A stretch of 64,000 bases of DNA, from the NCBI GenBank assembly GCA_021234155.1, contig JAJEKV010000099.1, forward strand, positions 2,732,165 to 2,796,164, given 5' to 3'. Shown in pieces: positions 1 to 45,296 of the stretch (position 1 is the first letter of the stretch; every line of letters begins with the position of its first letter). The translations under genes and the position numbers were made by a program. This DNA is from Isoetes taiwanensis (lineage: Eukaryota; Streptophyta; Lycopodiopsida; Isoetales; Isoetaceae). The notes below the pieces were generated by a model that made no database searches, was not told the DNA's origin, and saw only the letters and a list, made by a program, of their open reading frames with translations.

Positions 1-3690
<3,690 letters not shown>

Positions 3691-12149: not shown

Positions 12150-15100
12150 TCAATCAAGAAGAGCTTCAGGCACTATTTCAAGTTGCTCTTCCGTCATTTC
12201 TAGGAGGGTTGGGGAATCCAAAACCTCCTCCGGATCAGGGGTATGTTGTTTCAGAAGACTCACGTGAAAAACCTTGTGGATCTTTAAGCGGGGTGGCAAA
12301 TCCAGACGGTATGCCTGCTCTCCAACAAGCTCAATAATTTCGAACGGTCCAGCCCATCTGGGTGCTAACTTCTTGTAGTTGCCAATCTTAAGTTTGGCTT
12401 GCTTCACCTTAATCTTAAGCCAAACTGATTCGCCGACCTGGAAAGTGCGTGGAGTTCTGTGCTTATCGGCTACACTCTTCTGACGACTGCGTGCAGCTAT
12501 TAAATAACCACGAACTTCCTCGACGAGCGCTTGCATCTCCAAAAGGAGTTGTTGAGAAACCTCCACCTTAGAAACGGGGTTATGCCATGTGTCTAGAGTA
12601 AGACATTGATAACCATAATTTATCATAAAGGGAGACATTCTGGAAGATTCCTGCTTCATGCTGTTATAAGCAAACTCAACCAGATAAATATAGTCAGCCC
12701 ATTGTGATTGCTTACTCCACACATAACTTCTCAGCATATCCTCTATAATGCGATTGGTGCGCTCGGTCTGGCCATCTGTTTGAGGATGATATGCGGTGCT
12801 CATAGCAAGCTTGGTCTGAATGGTAGCAAAAAAATCTTTCCAGAATGCACTCACAAATTTGGGATCCCTGTCCGATACAATTACTCGTGGCATTCCGTGT
12901 AATCTGAATATTTCCTTGGCAAATAGCAGAGCAGTATCAAAGGATGTATCCGTGGTACGACATGGCAAGAAATGAGCCATTTTTGACAATTTGTCGACCA
13001 CAACCATCAAGGCATCATATCCCCGGAGAGTTCTTGGGAGGCCCACAATGAAATCCATGGTTATCACTTCCCACTTAGCGTTGGGCACATCCAGAGGTTG
13101 CAACTCACCTGGGATCCTTAGCTGTTCCGCTTTAGTCTGCTGGCATACCTGACACTGTCTAATGTATCTGGCAATGTCCTTCTTCATCGAAGGCCAAAAA
13201 TAGCTGGAGCGAATCTTAAAGTAGGTTTTCATAAAACCTGCATGTCCAGCTATAGGGCTATTGTGTGTGTCGTGAAGAATAAGTTTCCGTACTCCTGAAG
13301 TCCCCGGCACACACAACTTATCCTTGTGATATAATAAGTTGCCCTCTTTCCTATAGGCACGACAAGCGTCGCGCTCCGCATCTGTGCGAGCTTCCTTAGT
13401 CAAACTATCCCAAATGTCACAGAACTCCGGATCTGTGGCCAAGGTCTGCTCTATCTGTTTGCCAAACTCACTGGTGAGCGTAGAAATGGCATTACAATGG
13501 GTTCGGGTTACCAAGGGATGGCGTGACAATGCATCTGCAACCACATTGAGCTTGCCAGGTTTATACATAATCTCAAAATCATACTCCTCCAAGAATTCCA
13601 TCCATCTTCTTTGACGGAGATTGAGATTTGGCTGGGTGAATAAATAACGGAGACTTTGATGATCCGTATCCAACTGGAATCTTCTCCCAAGAAGGTAGTC
13701 TCTCCATATCCGCAGAGCACGAACAACGGCTAACAATTCCTGATCATGGGTAGGATATCGCTGCTCTGTCTCATTCATTTTCTTTGAATCATAAGCAATA
13801 ACCTTCCCCTCCTGCATTAGGACTCCACCGGTGGCAATTTTACTGGCATCCGTTGCTACTAGTTTATCCTGCTCAGGATCGGGTAATATGAGAACTGGTG
13901 CGGATGTTAAGGCATCCTTAAGTTGTTGGAAACTCTTATGAACTTTCGTCTTCCAGTGCTCCATCCAATCTTTCACCTTCTCTTGCCTGGTAAGATTTGT
14001 AAGAGGAGCTGCAATCTTCGCAAAATCCTTTACAAATTTCCGGTAATATCCTGCTAATCCCAAGAAGCTGCGGACTTCGGAAACATTCTCCGGAATAGGC
14101 CATTCTCTTACGGCCTCTATCTTTGTCGGGTCTGTAGCAATTCCCTCTGCCGAAATGATATGGCCCAAGTAATCGACCTTCGGAGTGGCAAACTTGCACT
14201 TAGAGAACTTGGCATAGAGTTGATGACGCCGTAACTTTTGTAAGGCCAATTTAAGATGTCGCTCATGCTCCTCCAGGGTCTTACTATAGATGAGAATGTC
14301 GTCGAAGAAAATGACAACAAAGTCATCCAAGTATTGTCGGAAGACATCATTCATTAATCGCATGAACGTTGCTGGGGCATTAGTTAATCCGAAAGGCATA
14401 ACTGTAAATTCATAATGCCCATACCTAGTGCGAAAAGCTGATTTATGGATGTCCTCCTGCTTAATTCTTATCTGATGGTATCCGGAGCGTAGATCAATCT
14501 TTGAGAAATACTTAGCGCCTTGCAACTGATCCATTAGGTCATCTGCTCTAGGCAAAGCATAGTGATTCTTGATGGTATGCTTGTTGAGTTGTCGATAATC
14601 AATACACATCCTCAGCGAGCCGTCCTTTTTCTTGACGAAGAGTATAGGAGCGCCAAAAGGCGAAACACTAGGTCGGATGAAACCTAGGTTTAATAGCTCC
14701 TGAAGTTGCTTCTTGAGTTCTGCCAATTCTGGAGGACTCATACGGTACGGGGCCTTGCTGGTAGGCTTGGTACCCGGCTCTAAAGCTATTTCACATTCCA
14801 CCCCTCTAAAAGGAGGAAGTTTCTGAATCTCATCCGGAAAAAGGTCACCAAATTCCCGGAGAAGATTAGCAATCCCCTCTGGCAAGGTGTCGATTATCTG
14901 CTTCTGCTTAGCATCTGACTCGATGGAAGCAAGCCTAATGATGCAAAGGAGCTTTTCCTTGCGTATAGCTTTATCTAACTGTCTGATGGACATAGACTGC
15001 AGGATAGGGTTGAAGGGTTGACCTTTGATAGTGACGCGAGCTCCATTAGCTGCGTTGAAGGTAACTTCTCTCTTCTCGCAGTCTATGTTGGCTTTTGCGG

Positions 15101-15940
15101 ATGCCAAGAATTCCATGCCCACAATGAGGTCATATTTGCCAATATCCATCAACTCGGCACCCAAAGCAACCGGTGCGCCTAGCAGCTGCATATTGAGATT
15201 GATGCGACAGCCATGGGTATGTCTGACTTTACCACTGGCTAGGGTAACAGGCCTCGGTCGGGACCTCAGTGTTTCTAGACGTAAGACACGGGCCATTCTA
15301 GGTGAAGCAAAATTATGTGTACTCCCCGTATCCATAAGAATTACAAAAGGCTTCCTGTCTACTTGGCCTATGGTAGAAATAACAGCAGACTGACTTTCAG
15401 CATTGCCGGTTTCTATAGCTGCAAGGATATGAGACGCACCGTGAATGTAATCGGGAGCCTCCTCCTCGACAGGTTGTGTTGATTTGAGATCATCCCAGTC
15501 GAGGTCGGCCATGGCCAGCTGGGCAGTTTGCGTGACATAGGGGCAGTTTTGCATGAAGTGCCCTGGCCTCATACACCTGTAGCAAGCCTTATCTCGGCGG
15601 AGTTGTTCACGGGCCTCTTTAGGGATAGACTGTAAGAGGTTCCAAACTTCCTTGCCGGCATTGTTCTGTTTATCAGGCGCACTAAAGGTGACTTTCTTTT
15701 CCTGGCGGCCATAAGAGTTCTGCTGAGAGGGCCCCGGACTTGGCGAGCGGGGTCTATAAGGTGTGGACGGCCGTGGCTGCGAGTAAGGAGCGGAACGCGG
15801 ATACTGGTTCCTTGGCGTGTCCTCTTCCAGGCTTAATGCCTTAGCCTCGGCCTCTGCAACCGATTTCGGGTCTATGGCCTTAACCATCCATTTGATTGAT
15901 GGGGCCAACCCTTCAATATAGCCTTCCACTGCCCTTTTCT
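12150..15940 (-). CDS. gag-pol polyprotein of element A, 5' truncated
   Basis: A single open frame of about 1,260 element-derived residues. Counting from 15998: gag C-terminal part to about 135, zinc knuckle [14 protein letters not shown] (139-152), aspartic protease LMDTGST (221-227), reverse transcriptase with FFDD (564-567), RNase H (about 715-825), integrase zinc domain H909/H919/C949/C952, catalytic D982, D1043, E1079 (DGQTER), and WAGPF (1215-1219). Gag and pol are in one frame with no shift. The first 20 codons of the open frame (15941-15998) are antisense LTR of element B, not gag: A is interrupted there. The polyprotein would supply capsid, protease, RT, RNase H and integrase for retrotransposition. 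The missing gag N-terminus and the stop before the chromodomain make this copy non-autonomous. Confidence 0.95.
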
Positions 15941-17552
15941 TGTGACGTTCCACGTAATTATACGGTCTACTATACGGGACACGTACAAATACAAGCACGT
16001 CACTCCCTAAAGGTACGCTACCATGGGGGTATGGGAACTTAATTGCAACCTAGGGGGTTACCTTAAAAGGGATTAAATTAGCTATGCTAATTTAACACAT
16101 TAATAATAATAACCTATAACCTAGGAAATTAGGCTAATTACCATTTGGGAAGGTGCCACCTGCCCCAATCGATTGGGTAGCATGGGGATTGCCAAGTTTG
16201 GATGCCAACTTGACCCCTATCCCAGGATTGACTCAAAGATCGACCAAGGAAGGCCGAGGGAGCTGGGCCATCGGACACTTGCGTAAGATCACCATAACAA
16301 ATCGTCCCTCGTGGAAGTGCAAAATGAATTCTCAACTCCCGGAGGATGGAGGCCCCATGGAAACGCGAGTCCAGCCCGAATTCGGTAGGTGGCTATGTGA
16401 ATTCTAGTTAACACTTGGTTGTGTCCGTCTCTCTCTGTTCTCTTTGTGAATCAATCATAGAAACTAACCCTTGATTGTACAAACAAGTTCTCTTTATATT
16501 CAATTCTGGTTCTTACTCTGAAGGGATGGATTGTTAGTTCTTTGTTTAATCTGACTCAAAAGGGGGGATTACGGGGTAGAGGCCTCTGCGACTGTGTATT
16601 GTAGTATGCTCCTAGATAGCCTGTAGAGTCCCATTAAGTGCGGCACATGCACAAGAACCCACCGGGTCCTAGATGCTATGGTCCGCTTAGCACCGCACAA
16701 GGAACACAAGTGGTGACATGAGGGGTGGGGTCTTGCATGAGCATACAAGGCTCCCGAGACTCCTACACAGTGGGCTAGGCCTGATGGCCGTCACGCTTGA
16801 GGGCGGGTATGGGTCCGACACTCCAGGGTGTAGTGGTGTGATCCGTATGGAGCACCATGCACTTTGAGTAGATTTAGGGTGAGTAAGCTCCGCACGGATC
16901 TGGGGGGGCTTGATGCGCACGTATTCTCTAGCTCACCCATGGAACCACTGCGTGATTACGGAAGGGGACGCCTCCCGACCTGCCTCATCGGACCGGCGCC
17001 ATGAACCTCGAGTAGGCTCGTGAGGGTGATGCCCCGAGTTTGCGTCTCAGGAAGGCTATAGCAAAGCCATAGCATGAATTGACCCATCTGCAAAGTGTGC
17101 ACAGGAGGGGCGGATGGAGTGGACAACCCTAGCCAATGCTCTATGCCAGCCAACGCCATGCCAAGACTTCGGTCTGGCGATCTCTTGAGGCTCACTAGTC
17201 GGTCGATCCTCACGGAGTCCGGAGCCGGGTAGAACCCGGATTCTCGGGTGTTTTGTAGGATTAGATGCCTATTCTATGCCGTTGGTATATTAGATGGATC
17301 GCCACCCTTCGTGGGTGGTTATTTATGTATATTCATGCTTTTGTGTGCTAACCCTTGTATTCATGCTTCAAGGACGTAGGAGTCCCATCAAGGCGTGGGC
17401 CGAATGACCCCTTCGTGTCCTTCTTTCGGGCCTCATTTCATAGATGGACCGAAATAGACGGAGGGCCCTGCTCATGGTGAGATGATTGCCATGGGAGGGG
17501 AAAGTCCCCGTATGTATACGTCCCGAGGGTCAGATATATATTACGGGCGTCC
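15941..17552 (+). mobile_element. 5' LTR of element B
   Basis: It begins tgtgacgttcc and ends in gggcgtc, a damaged version of the family end gggagcgtcaca. It is about 1.61 kb long. An AT-rich ctttatattc near 16493 could serve as a TATA box; this is a guess. The LTR is followed at once by a primer binding site, so it is a true 5' LTR. Confidence 0.88.
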
Positions 17553-17556
17553 GCGA

Positions 17557-17567
17557 TGGTATCGAGC
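17557..17567 (+). other. primer binding site (initiator Met tRNA)
   Basis: The sequence tggtatcgagc matches the usual plant initiator-Met tRNA primer site TGGTATCAGAGC except for a missing A within its CAG. The same damaged form occurs on the minus strand at 62683-62693. The position just after the LTR is as expected. Confidence 0.8.
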
Positions 17568-18290
17568 CGTGATTTCGGTTGTTGAAATCATAGCATCGCC
17601 CAAACACTAACTTCGTAGCACGCGGTAGTTAGGAGGAAGCTAAGTCAATGCGTCGTTAGTTCTCTTTGTTGTTTGGCTTGGTGTTAGGTTAAGTTAAGAA
17701 ATTGTAGCTTTGAAGTGGAGGGGCCAAGATTGGAGGCCTAGCAGGTGCCGCAGCTCAAATGACAAAGATGATGGCTCCATTGGATTGGGCGTACTCGAAT
17801 TACCCTAAAACAACAACTCTAGGCTTAAAATGGTCAAGGGCAGGCCCAAAATGAACTTCGGGCGCCGCTTGCTTTTGTCACTTTGCAGGTCAAGATCGGC
17901 CCATCTTGTCTTTGTCGCGCCGACCCGTCGGACTTCGAAGTTAACGCTGGCCCGCCAGTCAACTTCGGCGCCGCTTGCATTTCGGCGACACCCGGTCGGC
18001 GTAAAACCCGTATAATGCCATCGGTTTCCGACCGTATGTGGCGCGTATTTCAGCCAGATAATTTTTTAATAATAAAAATTTGAAGTTAATAAGAAAAAAA
18101 AATTTTGAAATTTTAAAAGTTAATTGGCCGTTTAGCAAACCATTTTCTGTCATTTGCTTTTGCTTCCATGCCTCCAACCGCTGAGCCGCCCTCGCCATCG
18201 CCACCGCATCGACCTTGATCCTGCGCCCTTGTGCTTTGTGCATCTTAAGCCCCCCTTTGCCATCCCCTTAGCCTTGACGCCGCACTAACC
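17568..18290 (+). other. 5' leader of element B, no clear gene
   Basis: The first part is noncoding leader. Near 17834-18015 there is a block with recurring cttcggcgccgcttgc phrases, and near 18056-18120 an AT-rich stretch. A plausible intron acceptor (ctttgcag) lies near 17888. I see no recognisable protein. Confidence 0.5.
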
Positions 18291-19080: not shown

Positions 19081-19102
19081 AAGTTAAAGACCGCCGGGGC
19101 TT

Positions 19103-19543
19103 TTGGGAAGAAGACCAGCTTCAGGGAGGCAGCAGAGAGTGGATAACTCCCGCCGGTTCTTTGGGGCTAAAGGCGGTGCCAACATCGTCGGGGCCTCGGC
19201 CGGCGGAAGCCTCATCGGTTCCGACCCGATGCAGTGGCATTGCGGGAGATCCGCCAAATTTCAGAAGTCCACGGACCTTCGGGATCGAAGTCGCCTTTTC
19301 GGAGGCTGGTACGGGAGATCGCCGCGGCAATTTAAGACCGATCTCCGTTTCCGGACCTTTTGCAATTTTGGCTCCCAAGAGGTCTTTGAAGCCTACTTGG
19401 TAGCACTTTTTGGTGATGCCAACCTTTGCGCTATCCACGCAAAGAGGGTCACCATAATGCCTAAGGATTTAGCCCTCACCAGGATACGGAGAAGCAACCT
19501 TAGCCTACTTGCGGGGATCCGCGTTTGTACATATTTTTTGTGA
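19103..19543 (+). CDS. histone H3-like protein encoded in the retrotransposon leader
   Basis: Several stretches match the histone H3 fold in order: KPHRFRP (19207-19227), VALREIR (19234-19254), FQKSTDL (19259-19279), [13 protein letters not shown] (19328-19351), EAYLVALF and [15 protein letters not shown] (19424-19468). The first part is in another frame and there are further shifts at 19280-19330; the breaks fall at CTG/CAG sites. Loop 1 has canonical H3 length rather than the longer form common in CENH3. The ARTKQTARKS tail is not recognisable: the N-terminal region is different or lost. The C-terminus departs from canonical H3 after the last helix (RIRRSN in place of RIRGERA) and extends a further 14 codons. 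It lies between the primer site and gag, in sense orientation. Probably a captured host H3 or H3-variant gene; whether it is expressed is unknown. Confidence 0.82.
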
Positions 19544-19695: not shown

Positions 19696-21103
19696 ATGGC
19701 TGCCGCCTTGCTTTGCCTTTGGTACCTTGATGGAGAGAAATGGGATCCACAGGTTCCCTTCGACCTGCTGCAGCCTTTGCTATGCCAACGCATAGATCTC
19801 CTTGCCAACATGCAGCGGCATCCGGACTACGCCGGATTCCTTGACTTTTACATGGAGGAAATGCTTCCTCTGTGTATTCCTCTGGGGGATCCTCCCCACT
19901 TGTATTTGGAGCGGGAGATAGTTCGGCAGATGCTAGGCGGGGACACACATGCTTATGATGTCCTGAAGGGGAAACTCCGATGGGGTAAACACCTACCAGT
20001 GGTCCAAAGATCGGGGGCAGCGCATTATATCTGGAAGCTACTTTTCGCTCTAGCCATCCTCATGGACCAATACGTTGAGGATGAAACCTTGCTTACGGCG
20101 AGAGAAGGGCAAGCTGCGGTAATCCTCCTCGGAGAGGGGATGACGAGCATATAGGAATGGGCGATTTTGCCCGTTGGAAAGAGCTAGCGGAGGAGCTACC
20201 ACCGCCGTGACCAATCTATAGGCTTGTCGTGGTTAGACGGGCTTCCAGTTATTTATCACCAAAGGGGAAATACCTTCTCTTGGATGATATTATCCGGGCG
20301 TATCCGTGGTGGCGGATTTAGACGCTTAGCCCAAAGACCATGTACTTTTACGAGCTTGCGGATATTGTATGGATGATTTCATCGACTTCACTTCTACCGA
20401 AGCTTCCTCCGGTGCACCACCGCTTGGGTTCCGTCCGGGAGACTCTAGAGCCCGGCGGAGACTCTACTACGCCTTACGTGACTTACGTGATGCGAGGAAC
20501 CAGCTTAAGAACCCGCACGGATGCCTTCATGGCTATGGGATTTCACGTCCCAAACATTAATATGGTGGAAGTTCCCTCCGACTCAGATGATGAGGGTGAA
20601 GATTTATACCATAACCCTGCGCACAAGAAGGAGGAACAACAGGAGCTCAAGGAGGAAGAAGTCCCCATGGACTTGGATAAGGAAGTGGCGAAAAATCGAG
20701 ACTTCATGAAGGGAAAGTCTTTGGTAACCACCTTACCTGTTTCTTTTTGTCGGCCTTCCGACATGGACAAGTCCTCTTCATAGCCCGAGATCTAGGGCCA
20801 GAGGCTGAAGCTTCATGGTGGGCCCTCCGTGCACTCTCTACACTGGCCGGCCACAAGAAGCTTCCCTATCGTACGTTCACGTATGTACTGTCTGACGGGA
20901 TCTTGCCCCGCGGCCTTGGGTCGGACATTGCGCCTTTGATGGGCATGAAGCTCCTCACGGCAGCCCCATTGGCCGTTGCCTATCCACCCGGAGGTTGCAT
21001 CATTGCGGCCGCCACGGTGAGACCACAGGGTTACTCTCACTACGACCGACCGCCTCCACCACCTCCTAAGGCTAAGGATCAGGAGGCAGGGCCTAGTTCC
21101 TAG
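19696..21103 (+). pseudogene. additional ORF upstream of gag (about 470 codons), element B copy
   Basis: ATG at 19696 (MAAALLCLWYLDGEKWD). The frame is open to 20154, then continues in other frames: FIDFTSTEASSG near 20378, an acidic stretch (PSDSDDEGEDLYHN, then many Glu/Lys) near 20570-20690, and a final part FRHGQVLFIARDLG near 20755 ending in a Pro-rich tail and stop at 21101. Element D carries the same sequence (33815-35201), identical between scattered CAG/CTG differences, so the ORF is a family feature and not a chance frame. No domain is recognised. Position upstream of gag recalls the extra ORF of Ogre/Tat elements, but those lack a chromodomain. The frame breaks may be sequencing errors. 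Confidence 0.65.
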
Positions 21104-21367
21104 TATAATTTTGCTATGAAAAATGTATATATATATATATGTTTTGCTAGTTTTTTTTCTTATATATCTATATATGTGTGTTCTGGGATTTTCGGTTGGC
21201 AATTGAATGGACCATATTGACAAATGGTGTACCTTATTTACTTATTAAATACAAAGTTCTCTTGAGGAGTATTATTGAATTGTGTGTTTTTCTTTATGAC
21301 ATCCTCTTCAAAAGTATTAAAACTTTAGAATATAATGGAATTACAAAATGTTCCAACTATGTTGCAG
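21104..21367 (+). other. AT-rich intron-like spacer
   Basis: The stretch contains a (TA)n run near 21126-21140 and ends in tatgttgcag, a good 3' splice site. In element D the same place reads tatgttgtag, so the terminal AG is kept. A matching donor is not obvious before the upstream stop codon. Confidence 0.5.
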
Positions 21368-21824
21368 AGGAAAACATTTGGGAATATGAGGAGAGAATCA
21401 CCGATATGGTTAGGAGGGACGATCCCGGGCCGCCAGACCAGGACTATGGCCAGAGATATGGTGAATATCCAGAGTGGGAGGAAGGCTATGAAACCGAACC
21501 ACCGCCACCAGGGGAACTCTACGACCCTGACAAAGGGCTAGAGATAGTTAATATCCTCAGGGATCGAGCTTTCGAGGATCCGAAGATGACCCCCGTATTC
21601 GTACACGGAACTATTGGAATATGACCGTGCACGGAAGCCTTCGAGGACGCCAACGACCATCTTTGGCAACTCTTTTATCGCGATCGCGGCTCTTTAACCT
21701 TCGATTATCAGCCCAACATGGGAGTACCAAGCAATCATTGTCCAAGCACGGGCACGCTATAAACTTCGTCCGAAATGCGGGAGAGTACCGCTTCTGCGAT
21801 CGCTACCCCTTCGCCAACCCCTAG
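21368..21824 (+). pseudogene. second additional coding segment upstream of gag (element B)
   Basis: After the splice acceptor at 21367 the sequence encodes an acidic, Tyr/Pro-rich segment (IWEYEERITDMVRRDDPG, then PEWEEGYETEPPPPGELYD), then DKGLEIVNIL. After a frame change it continues as FEDANDHLWQLFY and ends with YPFANP and a stop. The segment is present in element D (35463-35906) and in part in element E (44725-45050). It is either the second exon of the upstream ORF or a separate ORF. No family is recognised. Confidence 0.5.
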
Positions 21825-21866
21825 GCTTGGTCTCTTCCGTTGTGTTTTCGTTGTTGTGGTTACGCT

Positions 21867-21940
21867 GTGTGCAAGTAGAACTTTAAAAGTTTCCATTGTA
21901 TCATACCTACTTTTGTCTCAATCCATGTATCAATCAACCC
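21867..21940 (+). repeat. 74-bp direct repeat, left copy
   Basis: This block, starting gtgtgcaagtagaac and ending atcaatcaaccc, is repeated at 24371-24444 with one visible difference. Elements D (35949-36022) and E (near 45091-45164) have only one copy. The pair brackets an insertion unique to element B. Confidence 0.9.
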
Positions 21941-24370
21941 TTATAGTAGAAAAACAGCTTCAATTCTATGTGTCGTATTTTTTGATTTGGAGTCATAAAA
22001 GGTGTCATATCTCAATGTGACAGTCATATTTTATGACTATAGTAGAAAATCACCCTTAGTCGTTAATGGTTTAGACCCGTGTATTTCCTTTACATTATAT
22101 ATACTTTGAGGATTTAATCTCTATTGATATGCAGGGCTCGTGAAGTGCATTTTAGGGTTCTTTAGAAGCGGGTTGCATTCCTTTGCGTGGCTATGACTTG
22201 CAGGAGCTCATGGCAACATAAGGGAAGATTTTTCAACTACGAGGAGATGCTTTACCCAATGTCGCAGGCAGGGGCGTCTGTTGTGGTTTCTGCAGGGCAA
22301 CCACGGAGGGATTGGGGGGCTTGCGGAAGAAAGATGCTCTATGAAACTAGGGCATGGAGTGAGGCTGCAGCGATGGCAAAAAACCCTAGTTCTGGCTTTA
22401 GAGGAGCTAATTTTGTGACATGGCTTGTTTGCAGAATGATCTGGTTATTAAGTTTTCATGGAACTAGGGTTTTGTCACTGCACAATAAGATATGGCATAG
22501 CAGGCATCAGCAGGCATTGGAGTTCTCTTCTAAAAGCTAGAATCTTTGATACTAAGGTATGGCAAAATTTTGGTTATTTACAGAAGCTCCTACAGAAACC
22601 CCATAGATGAAGAATTCCTTCTAAAATTAGAAATTCTGGATTGATTCACATGTCTTAATCCTTTTTCACAAAATGGGTTACTATGCTAGATCTTCAAGCT
22701 TCGATGGAAATTGGGTTTGCCACTTGCACATCAAGATTTACCATAGCGGTGCATTGGTGTTCTCACTAAGAGTTAAGAAGCCCTTATGGGGAAATTTTGA
22801 TCATTTCACGAGAAGCTTTTCTCTCATGAAACCCCATAGACTCAAGAAATCCTCATCCGTAATCCATTCCTTGTCTCATTCATCCACTACTATTCTATGC
22901 ATCCTCCTCGAACGTAACAACCGACATGTGCTTCCGAGTGGTGAACATGGTTTTTGAGAAACGACATGATGGTACCTGGATTCACCAACCACTGGTAATT
23001 GCTATAAACATAGTTTTAAGATGTGTTTATGGTTGCAATAGTCTCATTCTATTGCTTGCACCAAACGTTCATGTGTGCAGTTACTAGGATCAAACATGGA
23101 TGTAAAAGCTCTCAATTTGCAAGGCATCTTCTTTTGGCTACAAAACAAACAAACTGTGCACTTGATGGTAAAGAAAAATGGAAGTCTTCAAATTGAGCTA
23201 CTGCAAGGTGCTACATTGGCCAATTTTTGCCACTTTGCGAAGCTACTCAATACGAGGTGCCAACATTTAATGCTTTTAAAACTTTCTATTGGAGAGCACT
23301 GCTCTACTGACGAACGTTGATTGATCTTATTTGAGAAAGCACCTAAATCCATATCAGTGTAACTTGCTTAGTAAATAAGAATGTCATGATATTAATTTGC
23401 CAAGAATAAATGAGCATCTTTTATTGTAGGGGATGTGGGGACGTGTTTCTTTAACAGTTATGCCTATTTGTTTATATGTATACTTAATTTCTAATCCATC
23501 TAATAAGTTCATTGTGCCTTCTAATGATATGTTCGTATTTGTTTGGATTATTTGAATTTTTTAATATAATTTTTTGGCTTGTGCAATAACTCTTTGGTTT
23601 CATAAGTCAAAAGGTTTTGCACTTGTTATTTTTATTTGCAATATAATATATAGAAATAATCAATGCCTTGATAGATTATGCAAATCAGGTACAAAATATT
23701 ACTGCCTCGTTGACATTATGTGTTGACTTATGATTTACAATTGACATTATAGGTGGTGGAAAATATGAAATTATAATTGATACAACTACAGTCTAACTTG
23801 TAACAATATGTGACATTATATTTGACGTTAAGAATGATACAATCATAACTTCCACATGATATTATATGTGATACATCTTATACTAATCATGTTAGAAATG
23901 ATGATACAAAGGATGATGATTGTGTTGACATTATGAGTCATTTAATTATAGCAGTACAGGTGATGCTATAGCTGACACTATATTATACCGTGGTGACATT
24001 TTGAATGTTTTAATTATAGCAATAAATGTGACACTATATTGCGCTCGTGATGACATTTTGAATGTTTTAATTATAGCAATAAATGTGATCCTATAGCTGA
24101 CACTATTATAGCACCACAAGGACAAAATGCATGATATTATAATTGCAGCTATAGATGATGCTATAAATGATACTATTATGACATTACAATGCTATAAAAT
24201 ATGATACTACAATTGTTGTTATTGGTGATGCTGCAAATGACGATATAGATGATGGGATTTCATCAACAGCTACCGTCACTTATTGTATCAAAATCTAAAA
24301 AAATGAAAAGTGTGATTTTCAGCAAATAAATGATGAAACTAGTGACTTAGATTACTTATTCTCTTGTAGT
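21941..24370 (+). other. 2.4-kb insertion specific to element B
   Basis: Elements D and E pass directly from the single 74-bp block to gttgttataatcaac, whereas B carries this extra DNA. The first part (22130-23330) has mixed composition with short frames, for example 22187-22540, none recognised. From about 23640 to 24300 it is AT-rich with many degenerate copies of tgacattat and atgatactat phrases. The CAG and CTG sites here look undisturbed, unlike the flanking retrotransposon. It could be captured host DNA. No gene can be named. Confidence 0.7.
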
Positions 24371-24574: not shown

Positions 24575-25920
24575 GCGGTAATGAATAGCGCTTGGCAAAC
24601 ACCCTCCAACGCCGTGGGTTCAACCCCTGAACGAGAATTGATGTTAATGAAAAAGGCAACTCTACGAAGTTACGTGCTTATGTGTTGCATACCAATCCAC
24701 CGCCACATACTCTCGGGAGGACGGACCGGAATTACCTCCGCGACCATTGAGTCCACACTCGCACAACAGCCATCTCCTCCCGAGCTAGCTAGCCCCTGCA
24801 CTGCATGCAGAGAAGGACTCATGCTAAGCGTCAACGGTTCCTCTAAGGATAGCGCCGCTTCCTCACATTCAACCACTTCGGGTTCTTCGGGTCCTCGCCA
24901 TCGACGCTGACCATTCAAGGCGTAAGGATAAGGAATACCGAAAACCGCTGATACAAATATCACTAGTATATGGAAGAACCGGAAGTTGGCTCGGTTTGAT
25001 GGGAAATCTAGAGGAGGCTTGAATGCGGAATCTTGGTTGGACGAAATGAAGGAATTCGGGAAGTCCTATGGAATGACGAGGAGAAAGATACAGGGGAAGG
25101 TCGCCACCACTTAACCTTTACCGAGCCGCCTGTATTTGGTGGAAGGGTTACGCCAGAGCTAAACACCGGATAGGAGCGGATGCAAGTTCGTGAAGTTTGC
25201 TAAGGCTTTTAAATCGCATTACGCGCCTCACAAGCACAAATGCCAACAGATTCGCACCTTCTACAAAGTTGGAACAGAAGGGCATGTCCGTGCGTGCCTA
25301 CACCGCATCGAATTCATGCGCTTGAGGTTGTAATGCGTGTGAATGAATGAATGAGAAAAGAGCGAGAGGGCTACATTGAAGGGTTGGCCCCATCCATTAA
25401 ACGAATGGTCAAGGCCATCGACCCAAAGTCGATAGCGTGAGGCTAAGCTAAGGCATTAAGCCTCAAAGGAAGACACGCCAAGGAGCCGCGATCCGCGACC
25501 GCTCCTTACTCGCAGCCACGGCCGCCCACACCTTACAAACCCCGCTTAGCCAAGTCCGGGCCCTCTCAAGACAATTCTTATGGCCGCCGGAGAAAGAAAG
25601 TCGCCTTTAGCACGCCCGGATAAGCGTAACAATGCGGGTAAGGAAGTTCGGGCCTCTTACACAGTCCATCCCTAAGGAGGCCGTGAGAACAGCTCCCGTA
25701 GATAAGGCATGCTACCGGTGATGAGGCCCGGACACTTCATGCGTAATTGTCCGTATCGCCACGCCAGACGCTCAACCGCCATGGCCGACCGATTGGGAAG
25801 ATTTGGAGTCCAATCTTGCTTGCCAGGAAGACGAGGCTCCCGAGTACATTCATGGTGCGTCTCATATTCTTGCCGCTATAGAAACAGTAGTAACGCCGAA
25901 AGTCACTTTACATTATTTCT
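24575..25920 (+). pseudogene. gag of element B, multiply frameshifted
   Basis: It follows a conserved splice-acceptor-like gattcctatag (to 24574; also at 36152 and 45296). Ser-rich N-terminal region near 24830-24900, then the gag core (ARFDGKSRGGLNAESWLDE near 24990), DKEYR, IEG and zinc-knuckle region near 25710-25770 (RPGHFMRNCP). The intact version of this protein is encoded on the minus strand at 63095-64000. Gag forms the virus-like particle and the zinc knuckle binds template RNA. At least ten frame breaks are visible, mostly at CAG/CTG sites. Confidence 0.8.
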
Positions 25921-28900: not shown

Positions 28901-29457
28901 TAAAATTGGTAATCAGAAGAAATTGGCACCCGGATACCGGGGGCGCTCAGATTACTGAACGTATAGGAGAACAGGCATATCGCTTGGACTTGCCACCCCG
29001 CTTGAAAATCCACAAGGTCTTTCACGTGAGTCTTCTGAAGCAACACACCCCTGATCCAGAGGAGGTTTTGGATACCCCTACCCTCCTAGAAATGACCAAG
29101 AGCAGCCGGAGATAGTGCCCGGCTCTTCTTGATCGAGCTTACAAACAGACCAGATGGACTCAAATGTTGCAATACTTGGTCAAGTGGAAGCACTTACCAG
29201 TTGAAGATGCTACCTGGGTGATGAAGATAGACCTTGAGAAGCACTATCCGGACTTCATGCGGGAATCTCAAGGCCGCACCATCAACGATGCTATCAACCC
29301 CGCTCCCGGCCCCAAGCTTGAAGGCTTGATTGACCGAGAATCATGTTTTAGAGGGGTAGACGCATCGTATATGATAATAATAACCGATGATGAGATCACC
29401 TTCGTGTTCTCTAGGACGTGGTGTATTGTTGATGTTGACATGACCGCGAATTACTAG
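25921..29457 (+). pseudogene. pol (PR-RT-RH-IN-chromodomain) of element B, multiply frameshifted
   Basis: Order of domains: protease [11 protein letters not shown] near 25950-25990; protease/RT linker 26130-26460; RT 26480-27300 with the FFDD motif near 26970; RNase H and connection 27550-27790; integrase zinc-binding and core 27990-28560; GPF-like region near 28900-29030; chromodomain 29164-29300 (YLVKWKHLPVEDATW). The longest intact piece is 27552-28043. The DNA aligns nearly base for base with the other copies apart from small changes at CAG/CTG/CG sites, so the number of true mutations is uncertain. Confidence 0.88.
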
Positions 29458-29981: not shown

Positions 29982-30878
29982 TGTGACGCCCCACGAATTA
30001 TACGGTCTACTATATGACACGTGCAAATACAAGCCCACGCCACTCCCTAAAGGTACGCTACCATGGGGGTATGGGAACTTAATTGCAACCTAGGGGGTTA
30101 CCTTAAAAAGGATTAAATTAGCTATGCTAATTTAACACATTAATAATAATAACCTATAACCTAGGAAATTAGGCTAATTACCATTTGGGAAGGCGCCACC
30201 TGCCCCAATCGATTGGGTAGCATGGGGATTGCCAAGTTTGGATGCCAACTTGACCCCTATCCCCGGATTGACTCCGAAGATCGACCAAGGAAGGCCGTGA
30301 GTCGGGCCCATCGGACACTTTGCGAAGATCACCATAACAAGTCGTCCCCGTGAAGTAACAAACTGAATTCTCAACTCCCGGAGGATGGAGGCCCCATGGA
30401 AACGAGTCCAGCCGAATTCAGGTAGGTGGCTATGTGAATTCTAGTTAACACTTGGTTGTGTCCATCTCTCTCTGTTCTTTTGTGAATCAATCATAGAAAC
30501 TAACCCTTGATTGTACAAACAAGTTCTCTTTATATTCAATTCTCGTTCTTACTCAAGGGATGGATTGTTAGTTCTTTGTTTAATCTGACTCAAAACGGGG
30601 ATTACGGGGGTAGAGGCCTCAACCGCGTGTATTGTAGTATGCTCCTAGATAGCTCAGAGTCCCATTAAGTGCGGCTCTGGCACAAGAACCCACCGGGTCC
30701 TAGATGCTATGGTCCGCTTAGCACCGCACAAAAGGAACACAAGTGACATGAGGGGTGGGGTCTTGCATGAGCATACAAGGCTCCCGAGACTCCTACAAAG
30801 GGCTAGGCCTGATAGCCGGTCACGTTGAGGGCCGGCATGGGCCGGCTAGGCCCTCGATAGCGGTCACGCTGTGGATCG
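29982..30878 (+). mobile_element. truncated 3' LTR of element B
   Basis: It starts with the family terminus and follows the LTR for about 0.9 kb. Near 30800-30875 a phrase with ggctaggcc and cggtcacg occurs twice. It then meets an LTR in the opposite orientation. The second half of this LTR is missing. Confidence 0.8.
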
Positions 30879-33814: not shown

Positions 33815-35201
33815 CCTTGCTGCCTGGTACCTTGATGGAGAGAAATGGGATCCACAGGTTCCCTTCGACCTGCTGCAGCCTTTGCTATGCCAACGCATAG
33901 ATCTCCTTGCCAACATGCAGCGGCATCCGGACTACGCCGGATTCCTTGACTTTTACATGGAGGAAATGCTTCCTCTGTGTATTCCTCTGGGGGATCCTCC
34001 CCACTTGTATTTGGAGCGGGAGATAGTTCGGCAGATACTAGGCGGGGACACACATGCTTATGATGTCCTGAAGGGGAAACTCCGATGGGGTAAACACCTA
34101 CCGCTGGTCCAAAGATCGTGGGCAGCAAATCTCCGAAGCTACTTTCGCTCTAGCCATCCTCATGGACCAATACGCTGAGGATGAAACCTTGCCGGGCAGA
34201 GAAGGGCAAGCTGCCGTAATCCTCCGAGGAGGGGATGACGAGCATATAGGAATGGGCGATTTTTGCCCGCTGGAAAGAGCTAGCGTAGGAGCTACCACCG
34301 CGTCGCGACCAATCTATAGGCTTGTCGTGGTTAGACGGCCTTCCAGCTTATTTATCACCGTGGCGCGGAATACCTTCTCTTGGATGATATTATCCGGACG
34401 TATCACGTGGTGGTCGGATTTAGACGCAGCGCAAAGACCATGTACTTTTACGAAGCTTGGCGGAGTATTGTATGGATGATTTCATCGACTTCACTTCTAC
34501 CGAAGCCCGAGGTGCACCAGCCGCTTCCGCCCGGGGAGAGACTCTAGAGCCGGGCGGAGACTCTACTACGCCTTCATTGACTTCGTGATGCGTGAACCAG
34601 CCAAGAACCCGCACTGTGATGCCTTCCACGGCTATGGGACCTCACGCCCCAAACATTAATATGGTGGAAGTTCCCTCCGGCTTCGGATGATGAGGGTGAA
34701 GATTTATACCATAACCCCAAGCACAAGAAGGAGGAGCAACATGAGCTCAAGGAGGAAGAAGTCCCCATGGACTTGGATAAGGAAGTGGCAGCATCTGAGA
34801 CTTCGCAAGGGAAAGTGCTGGGTAACCACCTTACCCGTTTCTTTTTGTCGGCCTTCCGACATGGACAAGTCCTCTTCATAGCCCGAGATCTAGGGGCGAG
34901 GCTGAAGCTTCATGGTGGGCCCTCCGCACTCTCTACACCGGCCGCCACAAGAAGCTTCCCTATCGCACGCGTTACGCATGTACTGTCGACGGGATCTTGC
35001 CCCGACGGGCCTTGGGTCGACACATTGCGCCTTGGATGGGCATGAAGCTCCTCACGGCAGCCCCATTGGCCGCTGCCTATCCACCGAGGGTTGCATCTGC
35101 TAGGCCGCCACAAGAGACCCCGGGTTACTCACCATGGACACCGAATCGCCTCCACCACCTCCTAAGGCTAAGGATCAGGAGGCAGGGCCTAGTTCCTAGT
35201 A
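33815..35201 (+). pseudogene. additional ORF upstream of gag, element D copy
   Basis: Same protein as 19696-21103 without the first few residues: LLCQRIDLLANMQRHPD near 33882, EIVRQILGGDTHAYDVLKG, the acidic region near 34690-34790, and the terminal stop near 35199. Between frame breaks the nucleotide sequence is essentially identical to element B. The shared open stretches in two copies are the evidence that it was a real gene. Confidence 0.65.
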
Positions 35202-35462
35202 TAATTTTGCTATGAAAAATGTATATATATATATGTTTTGCTAGTTTTTTTTCTTATATATCTATATATGTGTGTTCGGGAATTTCCGGTTGGCAATTGA
35301 ATGGACCATATTGACAAATGGTGTACCTTATTTACTTATTAAATACAAAGTTCTCTTTGAGGAGTATTATTGAATTGTGTGTTTTTCTTTATGACATCCT
35401 CTTCAAAAGTATTAAAACTTTAGAATATAATGGAATTACAAAATGTTCCAACTATGTTGTAG
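35202..35462 (+). other. AT-rich intron-like spacer (element D)
   Basis: Matches 21104-21367, including the (TA)n run and the terminal AG. Confidence 0.5.
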
Positions 35463-35906
35463 AGGAAAACATTTGGGAATATGAGGAGAGAATCACCGAT
35501 ATGGTTAGGAGGGACGATCCCGGCCGCACTGTGACTATGGCCGAGATATGGTGAATATCCGTGAGGGAGGAAGGCTATGAAACCAACCACCACCACCGTG
35601 GGGAACTCTCACGACCACGACAAAGGGCTAGAGATAGTTAATATCCTCGGGGATCGAAGCCGAGGATCTGAAGATGACCCCGCGGTCGCACTGGACTATT
35701 GGAATATGACCAGCACGGCCTTCGAGGACGCCAACGACCATCTTTGGCAACTCTTTTATGCGATCGAAGGCTCTTTAACCTTCGATTATCAGCCCAACAT
35801 GGGAGTACCAAGCAATCATTGTCCAAGCCCGGCACGCTATAAACTCGTCCGAGCTGTACGGGAGAGTACCCGCTACGCGATCCTGTACCCCTTCGCCAAC
35901 CCCTAG
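35463..35906 (+). pseudogene. second additional coding segment upstream of gag (element D)
   Basis: Matches 21368-21824. The C-terminal part is better preserved here: ALDYWNMTSTAFEDANDHLW, then FDYQPNMGVPSNH and YPFANP with a stop at 35904. Function unknown. Confidence 0.5.
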
Positions 35907-36152
35907 GCTTGGTCTCTTCCGTTGTGTTTTCGTTGTTGTGGTTACGCTGTGTGCAAGTAGAACTTTAAAAGTTTCCATTGTATCATACCTACTTTTGTCT
36001 CAATCCATGTATCAATCAACCCGTTGTTATAATCAACTTGAATGAAATACAAATATTGTCTTCTGTTTGTATATACTTTTGTTTCGATTGACTTAAAAAG
36101 GGATTGTACATTAATGTAAATCTGCTTATATATTCATGAATGATTCCTATAG
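35907..36152 (+). other. spacer or intron before gag (element D)
   Basis: Contains the single-copy 74-bp block (35949-36022) and ends in gattcctatag. It lacks the 2.4-kb insertion of element B. Confidence 0.55.
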
Positions 36153-37430
36153 ATGGTGTACGTAACGCCGCTTGGCAAACACCCTCCAACGCCAGTAGGC
36201 TCACCCCCGAACAGGAATTGATGTTAATGAAAAGGCAACTCGGGCGAAGTTACTGTGCTTATGTGTTGCATACCAATCCACCGCCACATACTCGAGGAGG
36301 ACGGACCGAATTACCTCCCATGACCATTGAGTCCACTCGCACAACAACACCATCTCCTCCCGTGAGCTAGCCCCAGCACTGCATTGCAGAAGGACTCATG
36401 CTAAGCGCCAACGGTTCCTCTAAGGATAGCGCCGCTTCCTCACATTCAACCACTTCGGTTCTTCGGGTCCTCGCCATCGACGCTGACCATTCAAGGCGAA
36501 GGATAAGGAATACCGAAAACCGCTGATACAGCTATCACTAGTATATGGAAGAACCTAAGTTGGCTCGGTTTGATGGGAAATCCAGAGGAGGCTTGAATGC
36601 GGAATCTTGGTTGGACTAAATGAAGGAATTCGAAGTCCTATGGAATGATCGGAGAAAGATACAGGAAGGTCGCCACCACCTAACCTTACCGAGTCGCCTG
36701 TGATTCGGTGGAAGGGTTACCGAGCTAAACACCGGATAGGAGCGGATGCAAGTTCGTGAAGTTTGCTAAGGCTTTTAAATCGCATTACGTGCCTCGCTAC
36801 AAGACAAATGCCAAATGATTCGACCTTCTACAAAGTTGGAACAGAAGGGCATGTCCGCGGCAGGCCTACACCGACGAATTCATGCGCTTTGAGGTTGTAA
36901 TGCGCGTGAATGAATGAGAAAAGAGCAAAAGAGAGGGCTACATTGAAGGGTTGGCCCCATCCATTAAACGAATGGTCAAGGCCATCGACCCAAAGTCGCG
37001 AGCAGAGGCGGAAGCTAAGGCATTAAGCCTTGAGGAAGACACGCCAAGGAGCCAAGATCCGCGACCGCCCTTACTCGCGAGCCCACGGCCGCCCACACCT
37101 TACAAACCCCGCTCGCCAAGTCCGGGGCCCTCTCAAAGACAATTCTTATGGCCGCCAGAGAAGAAAGTCGCCTTTAGCACGCCGGACATAAGCGTAACAA
37201 TGCGGTAAGGAAGTTCGGGGCCTCTTTACACCCCATCCCTAAGGAGGCCGGAGAACAGCTCCGAGATAAGGCATGCTACCGGTGCATGAGGCCCGGACAC
37301 TTCATGCGTAATTGTCCGCATGCCACGCAGACGCTTCAACCGGCCATGGCCGAATTCGATTGGGAAGATTTGAGTCCAATCTTGCTGCGGAAGACGAGGC
37401 TCCCGAAAATACATTCATGGTGCGTCTCAT
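36153..37430 (+). pseudogene. gag of element D, multiply frameshifted
   Basis: Follows gattcctatag at 36152. Contains the gag core near 36545-36620 (RFDGKSRGGLNAESW), the segment [10 protein letters not shown]-like at 36951-37208 with Pro/Ser-rich tail, and the zinc knuckle near 37284-37320 (RPGHFMRNCP). The intact reference protein is at 63095-64000. Frame breaks again fall at CAG/CTG/CG sites. Confidence 0.78.
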
Positions 37431-40400
37431 ATTCTTGCCGCTATATAAAAAAGGCACGCTGAAAGTCAGCCTTCGTTATTTCTACAATAGGCCAAGTAGA
37501 CAAGAAGCCCTTCATAATTTTGATGGACACGGGTAGTACACATAATTTTGCTTCTCCTAGAATGGCCCGTGTACCGCAAATGGAAACGTTGAAATCCCGA
37601 CCCTAAGCCACCACATTAGCTAGCGGTAAGATCGATTACACACTCATGGCCAGTGATTAACCTTAAAATGTACGCCAAAAGCACCGTTGCCTTGGGTGCC
37701 GAAGTTAATGGACATTGGCAAATATGATCTTATTGTGGGAATGGAGTTTTAGCGTCACAGGGGCCCACATAGATCGGAGGAAAACGGAGGTCACCTTCAA
37801 CGCCGCTTAATGGAGCACGTGTGACGATAAAAGGTGATTCATTACACTCCGCCATGCGCCAATGTCAAAAGCAGCTAGGAAAAGCTATAATGCCAGGAAT
37901 GAACTCCTTTGCCTCATTAAACTTGCTTCCATTGAGTCGGACTCCAAACAAACAAGAAGTAATCGACGCCTTACCATCGGACATTGCTACCCTTCTTCGA
38001 AATTTAGCGATCTTTTTTCCGGATGAGATCCACAAGCTTCCTCCTTTCGTGAGGGGTGGAATGTGAGATAACTCTTGAACCGGGTACTAAGCCTACCAAA
38101 GAAAGCCCCCATCAATGAGTCCTCCTGAGTTAGCGAGCTTAAGAAACAAAATACAAGAGTTACCGAATTTGGGGTTTATTCGCCTAGTGTTTCACCATTT
38201 GGCGCCCCTATTCTTTTGTCAAGAAGAAAGATGGCTCCTTAAGGATGTGTATTGATTATAGGCAACTCAATAAGCATACCATCAAGAATCGCTATGCTTT
38301 ACCTAGGGCGTATGATCTTATGGACCAGCTTACAAGGAGCAAAATATTTTTCAAAGATTGATTTAAGCCCGGTACCATCGATAAGGATTAAGGAAGAGGA
38401 CATCCATAAGTCTGCTTTTCGTACCAGATATGGGCATTATGAATTCAATCGCCATGCCTTTTGATTGACCAACGCCCCCTCACGCTTATAAAGCGGTTGA
38501 TGAATGACATCTTCCGCCAATACTTGGATGACTTTGTTGTCATTTTCTTTGATGACATTCTCATCTATAGTAAAACCTTGCAAAGAACATGAACAACATC
38601 TTCGATTAGCTTTGCAAAAGCTAAGGCCATCAGCTCTTTGCCAAGTTCTCTAAATGCAAGTTCGCCAATTCGAGGGTAGACTATTTGGGGCATATTATCT
38701 CAGAGAAGGAATTGCTACTGCACTCCAAATAAGATAGAAGCAAGAAAGGATTGGCCCATTCCAATGTTGTTTCGTAGGTCCGAGTTTCTTGGGACTCGCA
38801 GGATATTATCGGAAATTTGTTAAGGATTTTGCAACAATTGCCGCACCCTCTTACTAATCTCACAAGGCATGAGAAAGTAAAGGATTGATGGAACATTGGA
38901 AAACAAAAGTCCAAGTCGGCCAGTAAGCTCAAGGATGCCTTAACATCTCGCATCTCCCTTACCTTTACCCTCGATCCCGAAAAGGATAATCAAGAGCCAC
39001 CGACGCCAGTAAGATAGCTACCGGTGGAGTTCTAATGCGAGGGGAGAGTTGTTGCTTACGATTCAAAGAAGATGAACGATGCAGAAAATGATATCCTACC
39101 CATGACCGAAATTGTCGGGCGCTTGTTCGTGCTCTCCGTATTTGGAGACACTACCTTCTTGGTAGAAGATTTCAGCCGGATACGGATCATCGAGTCTCCG
39201 CTATTTATCCACCCAAATTAAATCTGAATCTATTTGCCAAGAGATGGATGGAATTCCTCGAGGAATATGACTTCGAGATTGTATATAAACCCGGGGAAGC
39301 ACAATGTGGTTGCGGATGCTTTGTCACGCCATCCCTTCATAACCCGCACCCATTGTAATGCCATTTCCACACTCACCAAATGAAGTTTGGGAAGCGATAG
39401 AATGCACCTTGGCCACAGATCCGCATTACTGTGTATTTGGGAAAGTTTGGGTAAGGAAGCCCGTCACCGATAGAGAACGTGAAGCATTCCGCTCATATAA
39501 GAAGGAGGGCAATTTATTATATTACAAAGATAAGTTGTGTGTTCCAAATGACTTCAAAAGTGCGAGCTGATTCTCCACGACACACACAAAATGTTCCCTA
39601 TAGCAGACATGCGGGTTTTATGAAAACTTACTTTAAGATCCGCTCCAGCTATTTTTGGCCTTCCATGAAGAAGGATATTGCTAGGGTACATCAAACAAGG
39701 TCGTTTGTCAAAGAAACCAAGGTCGAGCAATTAAGAGTTCCCGGGGAGTTGCAACCTTTGGATGTGCCCAACGCCAAGTGGGAAGTCATAACCATGGATT
39801 TCATTGTGGGGCTTCCAATGCATCTCCGGGGTATGATGCCTTAATGGTCGTGGTCGACAAACTATCAAAGATGGCTCACTTCCTGCCATGTCGCACCACG
39901 GACCGCCCCTTCGACACCGCCTTTGCTCTTTGCAAAGGAAATTTTCAGGTTGCACGGATGCCGAGTAATTGTATCGGATAGGGATCCTAAGTTTGTCGCA
40001 TTCTCGAAGGATTTCTTCGCCACCATCCGCACCAAGCTTGCCATGAGTACAGCCTACCATCCCTCGCATTTATAGTCAAACGTAACGTGTCAATCGTATT
40101 ATCGAAGATATGCTAAGAAGCTATGTATGGAGTAAAATAAATACAATGGGCTGATTATATTTACTTGGTAGAATTCGCCACAATAAAGAGATTGTAAAGC
40201 AGAGTCTTCTAGAATGTCTCCCTTCATGATAAATTATGGCTATCAATGTCTTACTCCCGACACGGGCATAATCCTCGTTTCTAAAGTGGAGGTCTCGCAA
40301 CAACTCCTTCTAGAAATGCAGCCTTGGTGGAAGAAGTTCGATTACTTATTGGCGCGCGACGCAAATGTCAAAGAGTCTAGCGATAAGCAATCAACCCCAC

Positions 40401-40966
40401 GAATCTTCCAGGTGGGCTTAATCCGCTTGGCTTAAGATCAAAGTAAAACAAGCCAAGCTTAAAATTGGTAATCAGAAGAAATTGGCACCCGTGATATTGG
40501 GCGCTCGTGATTACCGAACGATATGGGAGAACAGCATATCGCTTGACTTGCCACCCCGCTTGAAAATCCACAAGGTCTTTCACGTGAGTCTTCAAGCAAC
40601 ACACCCTGATCCGTAGGAGGTTTTGGATACCCCTACCCTCCTAGAAATGACCCAAGAGCAAACCGAGATAGTGCCCGGCTCTTCTTGATCGAGCTTACAA
40701 AACGTACCGGTAAGACTCAAATGTTGCAATACTTGGTCAAGTGGAAGCACTTACCATTGAAGATGCTACCGGGTGATGAAGATAGACCTTGAGAAGCACT
40801 ATCCGGACTTCATGCGGGAATCTCAAGGCCGCACCATCAACGATGCTATCAACCCCGCTCCCCTGCGTAAGCTTGAAGGCTTGATTGACCGAGAATCATG
40901 TTTTAGAGGGGTAGACGATCGTGATATGATAATAATAACCGATGATGAGATCACCTTCGTTCTCTA
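37431..40966 (+). pseudogene. pol of element D, multiply frameshifted
   Basis: Protease near 37518-37560 ([11 protein letters not shown]), RT 38060-38900 with FFDD near 38550, RNase H and connection 39100-39340, integrase zinc region 39600-39720, core 39760-40180, C-terminal region 40200-40620, chromodomain near 40720-40860, ending near 40966. It is the most disrupted of the pol copies; no domain is fully open. Confidence 0.85.
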
Positions 40967-41521
40967 GGACGTGGTGTATTGTTGATGTTGACATGACCGC
41001 TAATTACTAGGAAGGCATCTAGTAAATAGATTGGCGCTCATTCCTATATACTGAACTCCACCATTCCTTATGCCACAATGAATTGCAAGCCGTACACATG
41101 ATAGATTCCCTTCTAGATATTTTTCTTTTATTTGTAGGGGGTGGTCCCTTCAACCACAACTTAATCATATTATTAACCTACGGGTATATGGTTGTGTGCA
41201 GGCCAGTGAACAAGTCACACCGCCTTTGTATAGAGGGTTGTCGATGACCCAACTTTTCCCGTATTGGTTTTGTCTACATGTGTGATTTTTGCTGTCAGAA
41301 TGTTTTAAATGGGACTTCGGTCCTAAACTCCCTTGATCATAAGTTTGTATCGGGCACCTTGGTGCTTGTACTTTGATATTTTAACTTCAATGTATTACTG
41401 TCCGAATTACTATAATCTCAACGTATTAATGTTATATTCTTAACTTCATTTTCTAATTCGATTAGCTTTTACGATATGTATTCAATTAGCTGACCCCAAT
41501 GCCGAGGACAAAGATTATTTT
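40967..41521 (+). other. 3' untranslated region of element D
   Basis: Matches 29458-29967. I see no gene. Confidence 0.7.
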
Positions 41522-41535
41522 TAAGGAGGGGAGAA
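41522..41535 (+). other. polypurine tract of element D
   Basis: taaggaggggagaa abuts the LTR at 41536. Confidence 0.85.
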
Positions 41536-44724: not shown

Positions 44725-45050
44725 CCCACCGCCACCGGGGGAACTCTACGACCCCTCGACAAAGGGCTGGAGATAGTTAACATCCTCGTGGATCGAAGCC
44801 GAGGATCTGAAGATGACCCCGTGGTCGCACTGACTACCGGAATATGACCGTGCACGAAGCCTTCGAGGACGCCAACGACCATCTTTGGCAACTCTTTTAT
44901 GCAATCTTGAAGGCTCTTTAACCTTCGATTATCAGCCCAACATGGGAGTACCAAGCAATCATTGTCCAAGCCCGGCACGCTATAAACTCGTCCGAAGCCG
45001 CGGGGAGAGTACCTCACCACGCGATCCTCAGACCTTCACCAACCCCTAGG
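44725..45050 (+). pseudogene. partial second additional coding segment (element E)
   Basis: Corresponds to the last two thirds of 21368-21824 (GLEIVNIL near 44766, EDANDHLWQL-like near 44865). Fused directly to the LTR. Confidence 0.45.
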
Positions 45051-45296
45051 CTTGGTCTCTTCCGTTGTGTTTCGTTGTTGTGGTTACTGCCAGGTGCAAG
45101 TAGAACTTTAAAAGTTCCCATTGTATCATACCTACTTTTGTCTCAATCCATGTATCAATCAACCCGTTGTTATAATCAACTTGAATGAAATACAAATATT
45201 GTCTTCTCGCTTGTATATACTTTTGTTTCGATTAACTTAAAAAGGGATTGTACATTAATGTAAATCTGCTTATATATTCATGAATGATTCCTATAG

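Follow-up and report, generated by a model that had tools for sequence, protein, structure and literature searches.

A chromovirus family of Isoetes taiwanensis carries a pre-gag open reading frame that ends in a histone H3 core

In this study, we analysed a stretch of 64,000 nucleotides of the Isoetes taiwanensis assembly (the window), and the comparisons presented here indicate that a histone H3 sequence lying ahead of gag in one LTR retrotransposon belongs to the resident genes of a family of chromoviruses and is not a one-off capture. This conclusion is drawn from the recurrence of the gene, its fixed position among the element genes, purifying selection, the target duplications of four copies and the H3 core of a neighbouring element. 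It is likely that the family possesses a selected reading frame, here called ORF0, which ends in a complete H3 core and whose histone fold allows it to serve as an H3.

The H3-coding block of the window (19103-19543) belongs to element B (Table 1). Its single open frame matched Pfam Histone (E 5.4e-13) and, as the best sequence match in the PDB, Histone H3.2 (E 4.8e-20). In a frameshift-aware alignment with canonical plant H3, residues 4-131 were located at 19108-19489 on the plus strand, with 80 of 121 aligned residues identical, eight frameshifts and a score of 315, against a maximum of 47 among 30 mononucleotide shuffles. The preliminary description was right that a retrotransposon with a chromodomain has a sense-oriented H3-like gene between its primer binding site and gag, and the translated region is indeed nearest to H3. 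The gene is larger than the H3 block noted there, which forms part of ORF0. The altered C-terminus and unrecognisable tail noted for the block are explained in part by frame breaks of this copy, while the tail is foreign in open copies as well. The coding region at 19.7-21.1 kb that had been read as gag is an orphan frame, ORF1; a Ty3-type gag is found further downstream, near 24.58-25.8 kb. For the ORF0 leader of the window copy alone, coding potential was z 4.5 on the plus and 3.3 on the minus strand; that ORF0 is coding was established from other copies.

Table 1. Features of element B and of related elements in the window (positions are those of the window).
Feature	Position	Strand	Basis or remark
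5' LTR of element B	15941..17556	+	self-BLAST, sequence; starts TGTGACG
Primer binding site TGGTATCGAGCC	17557..17568	+	sequence; pattern adjoins LTR end in 15/19 copies
ORF0 of element B, interrupted by frameshifts and stop codons	18294..19503 (approximate)	+	
Histone H3 core (H3 K37 to C-terminus), C-terminal end of ORF0	19207..19500	+	
ORF1, orphan coding region, not gag	19696..21103	+	coding-like, z 8.9
ORF2, orphan coding region	21300..21830	+	coding-like, z 12.8; no Pfam match; found in 15/19 stretches
Insertion in B, not present in window copies C and D	21941..24369	+	self-BLAST
gag region (broken) of element B, Ty3-type	24580..25800	+	found in 15/19 stretches
Integrase chromodomain of element B	29146..29259	+	Pfam Chromo, E 2.7e-7
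3' LTR of element B, truncated; adjoins inverted copy	29982..30841	+	self-BLAST
Copy C: ORF1 through 3' LTR	33815..43129	+	self-BLAST
Copy D: LTR joined straight to ORF2; without ORF0 and ORF1	43148..48643	+	self-BLAST
Element A: open 1299-aa gag-end/pol frame	12150..16049	-	

According to the available part of the assembly paper (PMC8566536), sequencing was by Nanopore, with polishing by racon and pilon. When copy B is compared with copy C over 19706-21940, there are 100 substitutions (48 transitions and 52 transversions) as well as 68 gap openings, of which 66 comprise 1-3 bases. This pattern indicates that long-read error has been added to decay. Because both the mix of differences and the Nanopore assembly fit long-read error, the frameshifts of the window copy carry little information.

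The other copies in the genome are more informative. A DNA search with the block gave 1319 first-look candidates; the best 40 were scored and all matched, one being the window and the other 39 matching at 88-90%. With an open fragment as protein query, 11558 first-look candidates were obtained, and all of the best 131, which were the ones scored, matched, with identities of 73-100%; in 89 of these, no in-frame stop interrupts the matched region (hand count). In both searches the scored matches are the best of the list, and first-look candidates are unverified as copies. Matches 2-20 of the DNA search were fetched as 10-kb stretches, and the check suggested in the preliminary description, a search for further copies with this frame between primer site and gag, was positive in all 19. 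The order LTR, 0.6-kb leader, N-terminal region and H3 was constant (19/19), and the LTR piece 15944-17556 was matched in every copy. ORF1 was also found in 19/19, directly behind H3 in 18, although only in part in L010; its position far downstream of H3 in L019 suggests an insertion. ORF2 and gag lay inside the 10-kb stretch in all copies except L010, L016, L017 and L019. The whole 463-codon frame was open in three copies (L017, L018 and L020). The possibility that a host H3 was captured passively once and is now a decaying pseudogene, as the preliminary description had considered, can appeal to the eight frameshifts of the window copy, which is itself broken. We regard it as highly improbable for the family: the H3 recurs in 19/19 fetched copies and in the best 131/131 scored matches, open frames exist, dN/dS is low (see below), and the ratio of gap openings to substitutions between B and C suggests that much of the damage is long-read error.

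The gene moves together with the rest of the element. In the four copies for which the 3' end was fetched (L018, L020, L014 and L026), both LTRs and 5-bp target duplications were present; the duplications were read by eye from the flanks, with the LTR edge set at CACA in three of the four. As expected of Ty3/Gypsy chromoviruses, all four have LTRs with TG..CA ends and the 5-bp duplications. The integrase C-terminus bears a chromodomain in the same four copies (tblastn) and in copy B (Pfam). The LTR pairs differ by 2.8-4.7% in substitutions, sequencing error included. The 5' LTR of element B has an eroded end, and better copies end in CGTCACA. In many relatives the primer binding site reads TGGTATCAGAGCC; we take this site to be of the plant initiator-tRNA-Met type.

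The H3 core is also present in a neighbouring, diverged element. The open frame of element A has the order PR-RT-RH-INT (Pfam, with rve slightly below the cut-off), and B and the four fetched copies are homologues. The element at the right end of the window, which we read as the rest of A, is ~79% like B in DNA over pol. A's two halves were linked on the basis of a 371-bp duplication: 371 bp of A occur at both edges of a large block inside A (15570-15940 and 63093-63463, 99.2% identical). This duplication is too long for a target duplication and reflects either a rearrangement or an assembly join. The element read as the continuation of A contains an open H3 core ~6.2 kb past the window (L043:6185-6496, minus strand) with the same ten diagnostic residues as the open copies described below; the fetched stretch ends at the core. 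Between 2009 and 5386 of L043, foreign sequence that includes a transposase-like frame interrupts ORF1 of this neighbour (by eye).

Several other features of the region were recorded. Within the window, ORF1 is seen again in copy C and ORF2 in copies C and D; most of the genome copies that were fetched contain the two frames. Copy C cannot show H3, since everything left of its ORF1 is missing. An inverted partial copy E (30841-33815) abuts the 3' LTR of B and ORF1 of C, and these joins may be assembly artefacts. The insertion in B holds CACTACAAGAGAA at its right edge on the minus strand, which resembles a CACTA transposon end, and a flank of ~75 bp is repeated on both sides (21866-21940 and 24370-24444). 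A single open frame at 5142-7169 contains a protein kinase domain and a C-terminal glycosyl hydrolase 18 domain, 49688-50005 on the minus strand encodes a DUF7869 domain (E 4.5e-21) that is possibly part of another mobile element, and 1-3866 contains diverged direct repeats of several hundred bases.

For the analysis of the protein, 11 further copies were taken from the stop-free protein matches so as to span their divergence. All 11 were open and, together with the three fully open copies, gave a set of 14 that is best-scoring and chosen for open frames. In these copies ORF0 encodes 409-421 aa from the first conserved Met; no other large gene lies between it and the primer binding site, and the two orphan frames and gag come after it. 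An acidic N-domain (1-208) is followed by a coiled coil, a glycine-serine linker and a basic tail. The H3 core of 99 residues terminates the protein and is preceded by ~310 other residues. Histone was the only family above the Pfam cut-off (E 2.6e-41), and the best PDB match was H3.3 (E 2.5e-52). For the N-domain, neither a recognised family (Pfam) nor a recognised fold (Foldseek) was found. The tail has the invariant blocks QYK.KL..VGA.GK, RRQ..VD and G.K..P. When the tails were aligned by eye, a K27-like lysine was seen in 14/14 open copies; ARK(S/T)G, resembling the H3K9 context, occurs in the tail of three.

The 14 cores run from KPHR(F/Y) to RIRGE plus two residues and a stop, the last two residues being QP and HP in six copies each and QS and RL in one each. 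Over the canonical alphaN-to-alpha3 core, 82-85 of 99 residues are identical to H3, and the canonical tail ARTKQTARKSTGGK is absent from the N-terminus of the protein. Counting K37 as the first residue of the core, all 14 copies share Y54F, S86T, S87F, V89I, A90L, G102A, E105G, T107A, I124L and Q125A relative to the canonical H3 used, and 16 positions vary among them. Residues 108-123 and 126-132 are canonical except for V117I in L018. Position 41 is Y in 8/14 and position 90 is L in 14/14, a combination that we take to be plant H3.3-like. The chaperone-site sequence is FAIL, and the changed positions 105, 107, 124 and 125 presumably lie inside the stretch that contacts histone chaperones. CENH3 has a longer loop 1 and a divergent core. 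In the element, loop 1 reads FKTDLRF in 12/14 copies, with one substitution each in L036 and L040 and no insertion, which rules out an identity as CENH3. None of the 120 H3 matches listed of 7995 contained QTF, VALFGD, GDANLC, RGEQP or RGEHP. Two database H3s, P0034 (which shares MPKDLALA) and P0031 (which shares FAILALQ), are ordinary H3s elsewhere.

Both the H3 core and the N-domain are conserved at the protein level. Among the 14 open copies, the mean amino-acid identity of the H3 core is 0.958 and its median dN/dS 0.035 (maximum 0.235), calculated over 88 of 91 pairs, the rest having a dS of 0.05 or less or being saturated; pooled pN/pS is 0.055 (codon bootstrap 0.026-0.097). The N-domain gave a median dN/dS of 0.072 (78/91 pairs), coil and linker 0.262 and the tail 0.279 (91 pairs each). 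As a reference for pol, element A compared with three open segments of L018 and L014 gave 0.019-0.060 at dS 1.35-1.78. In the first sample the H3-core pattern was matched in 13/19 copies and not in six, L019 being matched with an altered core; the 12 copies left when L019 was dropped had a pooled pN/pS of 0.10 (66 pairs). Across 409 codons, the three fully open copies showed dN/dS values of 0.07-0.10; for the 54 codons that precede the conserved Met, pN/pS was ~2.0, 0.36 and 0.57. All ratios were obtained by the Nei-Gojobori method from non-independent pairs of copies picked for open frames; we do not think that this choice alone would give 0.035. Judged by these ratios, ORF0 in the open copies examined is under purifying selection about as strong as that on pol. 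The dN/dS comparison suggested by the preliminary description thus speaks against neutral decay.

The synonymous distances of N-domain and H3 are correlated (rho 0.90, 91 pairs), which indicates that the two travel together, and the ten substitutions common to 14/14 copies argue for a single capture. The median dS of the H3 core (0.51) is about half that of the N-domain (1.00), and three copies display a mosaic identity in which recombination among copies is visible. Both observations would fit a scenario in which the low dN/dS is borrowed: gene conversion, either between copies or with H3 genes of the host, would keep the core canonical in a sequence that has no function for the element. This appears very unlikely to us, as fixation of ten non-canonical residues is the opposite of conversion to canonical H3, and as the fused N-domain, which is not derived from H3, is constrained as well. 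Recombination may not necessarily be the whole reason for the lower dS of the H3 core, and an overlapping RNA signal is a possible source.

In the AF2 model of ORF0, helices near the N-terminus (residues 11-40, block pLDDT 91-94) were predicted with confidence, as was a long helix at 185-232 (block pLDDT 96-98 over 201-230), whereas the H3 part reached only 40-65 and most of the remainder was low too. Foldseek with this model returned no match at E <= 0.001; three of its 37 rows were SAP-domain proteins, all very weak (E 2.3-9.8). Because AF2 confidence was low and Foldseek gave no significant match, the assignment of a histone fold rests on sequence. The long helix and the selected N-domain, in elements that also have a chromodomain, leave some room for a tether, in which the H3 core, either within a nucleosome or together with H4, would anchor the particle or integrase complex via coiled coil and N-domain and so add to or steer the chromodomain. 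We consider such a tether possible though rather unlikely, given that the N-domain matches no recognised family or fold. For ORF1, which is 490 aa stop to stop in L018, no Pfam match was found, its first part had no database homologue (0/65 candidates) and the AF2 model had a mean pLDDT of 34.8. The start of ORF1 and the N-domain of ORF0 had no relatives in viral contigs, and the similarity between ORF0 and ORF1 was not significant.

The basic tail (17 K/R against 3 D/E in L020) could also suit a role in which H3 core and tail condense element RNA or cDNA in particles without entering host nucleosomes, and virion packaging is mentioned as a histone role in the available part of a viral histone review (PMC9145170). 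Packaging seems unlikely to us all the same, since the core retains long runs of canonical H3 residues and no partner histone was convincing in the leader: in frameshift-aware comparisons of 18100-18700, 18600-19150 and 19690-20400 with H2A, H2B and H4 (8 shuffles each), eight of nine scores were inside the shuffle range. The ninth, with H4, exceeded the shuffle maximum by one point (35 against 34, over 22 codons) and was taken as noise.

Most likely, we infer, ORF0 is an H3 variant whose tail has been replaced and which is competent to form nucleosomes. An H3.3-like H3 would have been captured once, lost its canonical N-terminus and come to follow the acidic N-domain, the long coiled coil and the basic tail. 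The core would pair with host H4 and be taken up by host H3 chaperones of the replication-independent type. Nucleosome entry, which we favour slightly, would swap out the silencing-prone H3 tail and plant the N-domain and coiled coil on chromatin, although the changes at 105, 107, 124 and 125 count against it and the fusion of ~310 residues may hinder deposition. Potentially, chromatin of the element would thereby be kept from tail-based silencing, or element complexes would be docked there. In flowering plants, transposon silencing acts partly by H3-tail marks such as H3K9me2, according to the available part of PMC10952607. An anti-silencing role of the ORF0 H3 is conceivable, if clearly less probable than nucleosome entry itself. 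It is tempting to speculate, and only tentatively, that a self-encoded H3 variant enters nucleosomes, rewrites the chromatin state of insertions or targets and evades tail-based silencing, possibly with the element's own chromodomain. Simple mimicry of methylated H3 for that chromodomain is doubtful, because the canonical H3 N-terminus is absent from ORF0. If the proposal is true, an H3 with a replaced tail in distant subfamilies (the pol dS given above), selected about as strongly as pol, would give direct genetic access to the ways in which mobile elements manipulate nucleosomes, and the numerous open copies make the idea testable.

The family shares LTRs, primer binding site, gag, PR-RT-RH-INT, chromodomain and 5-bp target duplication with plant Ty3/Gypsy chromoviruses, but differs in three extra pre-gag frames, the first of which ends in histone H3. 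Compared with plant H3.3, the core has the best PDB match and the residues at 41 and 90 noted above in common; it differs in the lack of the canonical tail, the ten fixed core changes and the fusion. A search of titles and abstract openings in the open-access literature, with preprints and most subscription papers outside its coverage, revealed no report of a histone-encoding retroelement. An additional frame fixed in an LTR-element family is known from other plant LTR retrotransposons (PMC7264820) and from orchid Gypsy elements with an AlkB frame, which is host-like (PMC9289625); as far as the available parts of these papers describe, the difference is that here the frame encodes a core histone and precedes gag. 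In the former review, the main text has 0 occurrences of the word "histone".

Single histones were described for bracovirus (H4), xenomavirus (H3) and phycodnavirus (H3), and the available part of the review on viral histones (PMC9145170), whose main text contains "retrotranspos" and "retrovir" 0 times, gives mostly 73-89% identity in the core, long foreign N-terminal tails for some and an altered chaperone site in viral H3. In the same account, viral H3s that occur singly, have long new tails and read SAIL or TAIL at the chaperone site were judged likely to form nucleosomes with host histones, and bracovirus H4, which acts by way of its tail, was found in nucleosomes of the host. Incorporation into host nucleosomes, as in these cases, is compatible with the sequence of the element H3. 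The nudivirus protein Orf1 is likewise long, with a first part without known homologue and histone folds at its end; it differs in carrying an H4-H3-like doublet of 30-40% identity, whereas the element has a single near-canonical H3 (available part of PMC9145170). The single viral histones described there come from DNA viruses or polydnaviruses, in contrast to the LTR retrotransposon studied here. In summary, the parts of this element are of known kinds and, as far as the literature search showed, their combination is new; if our reading is true, histone capture would extend from DNA viruses to retroelements.
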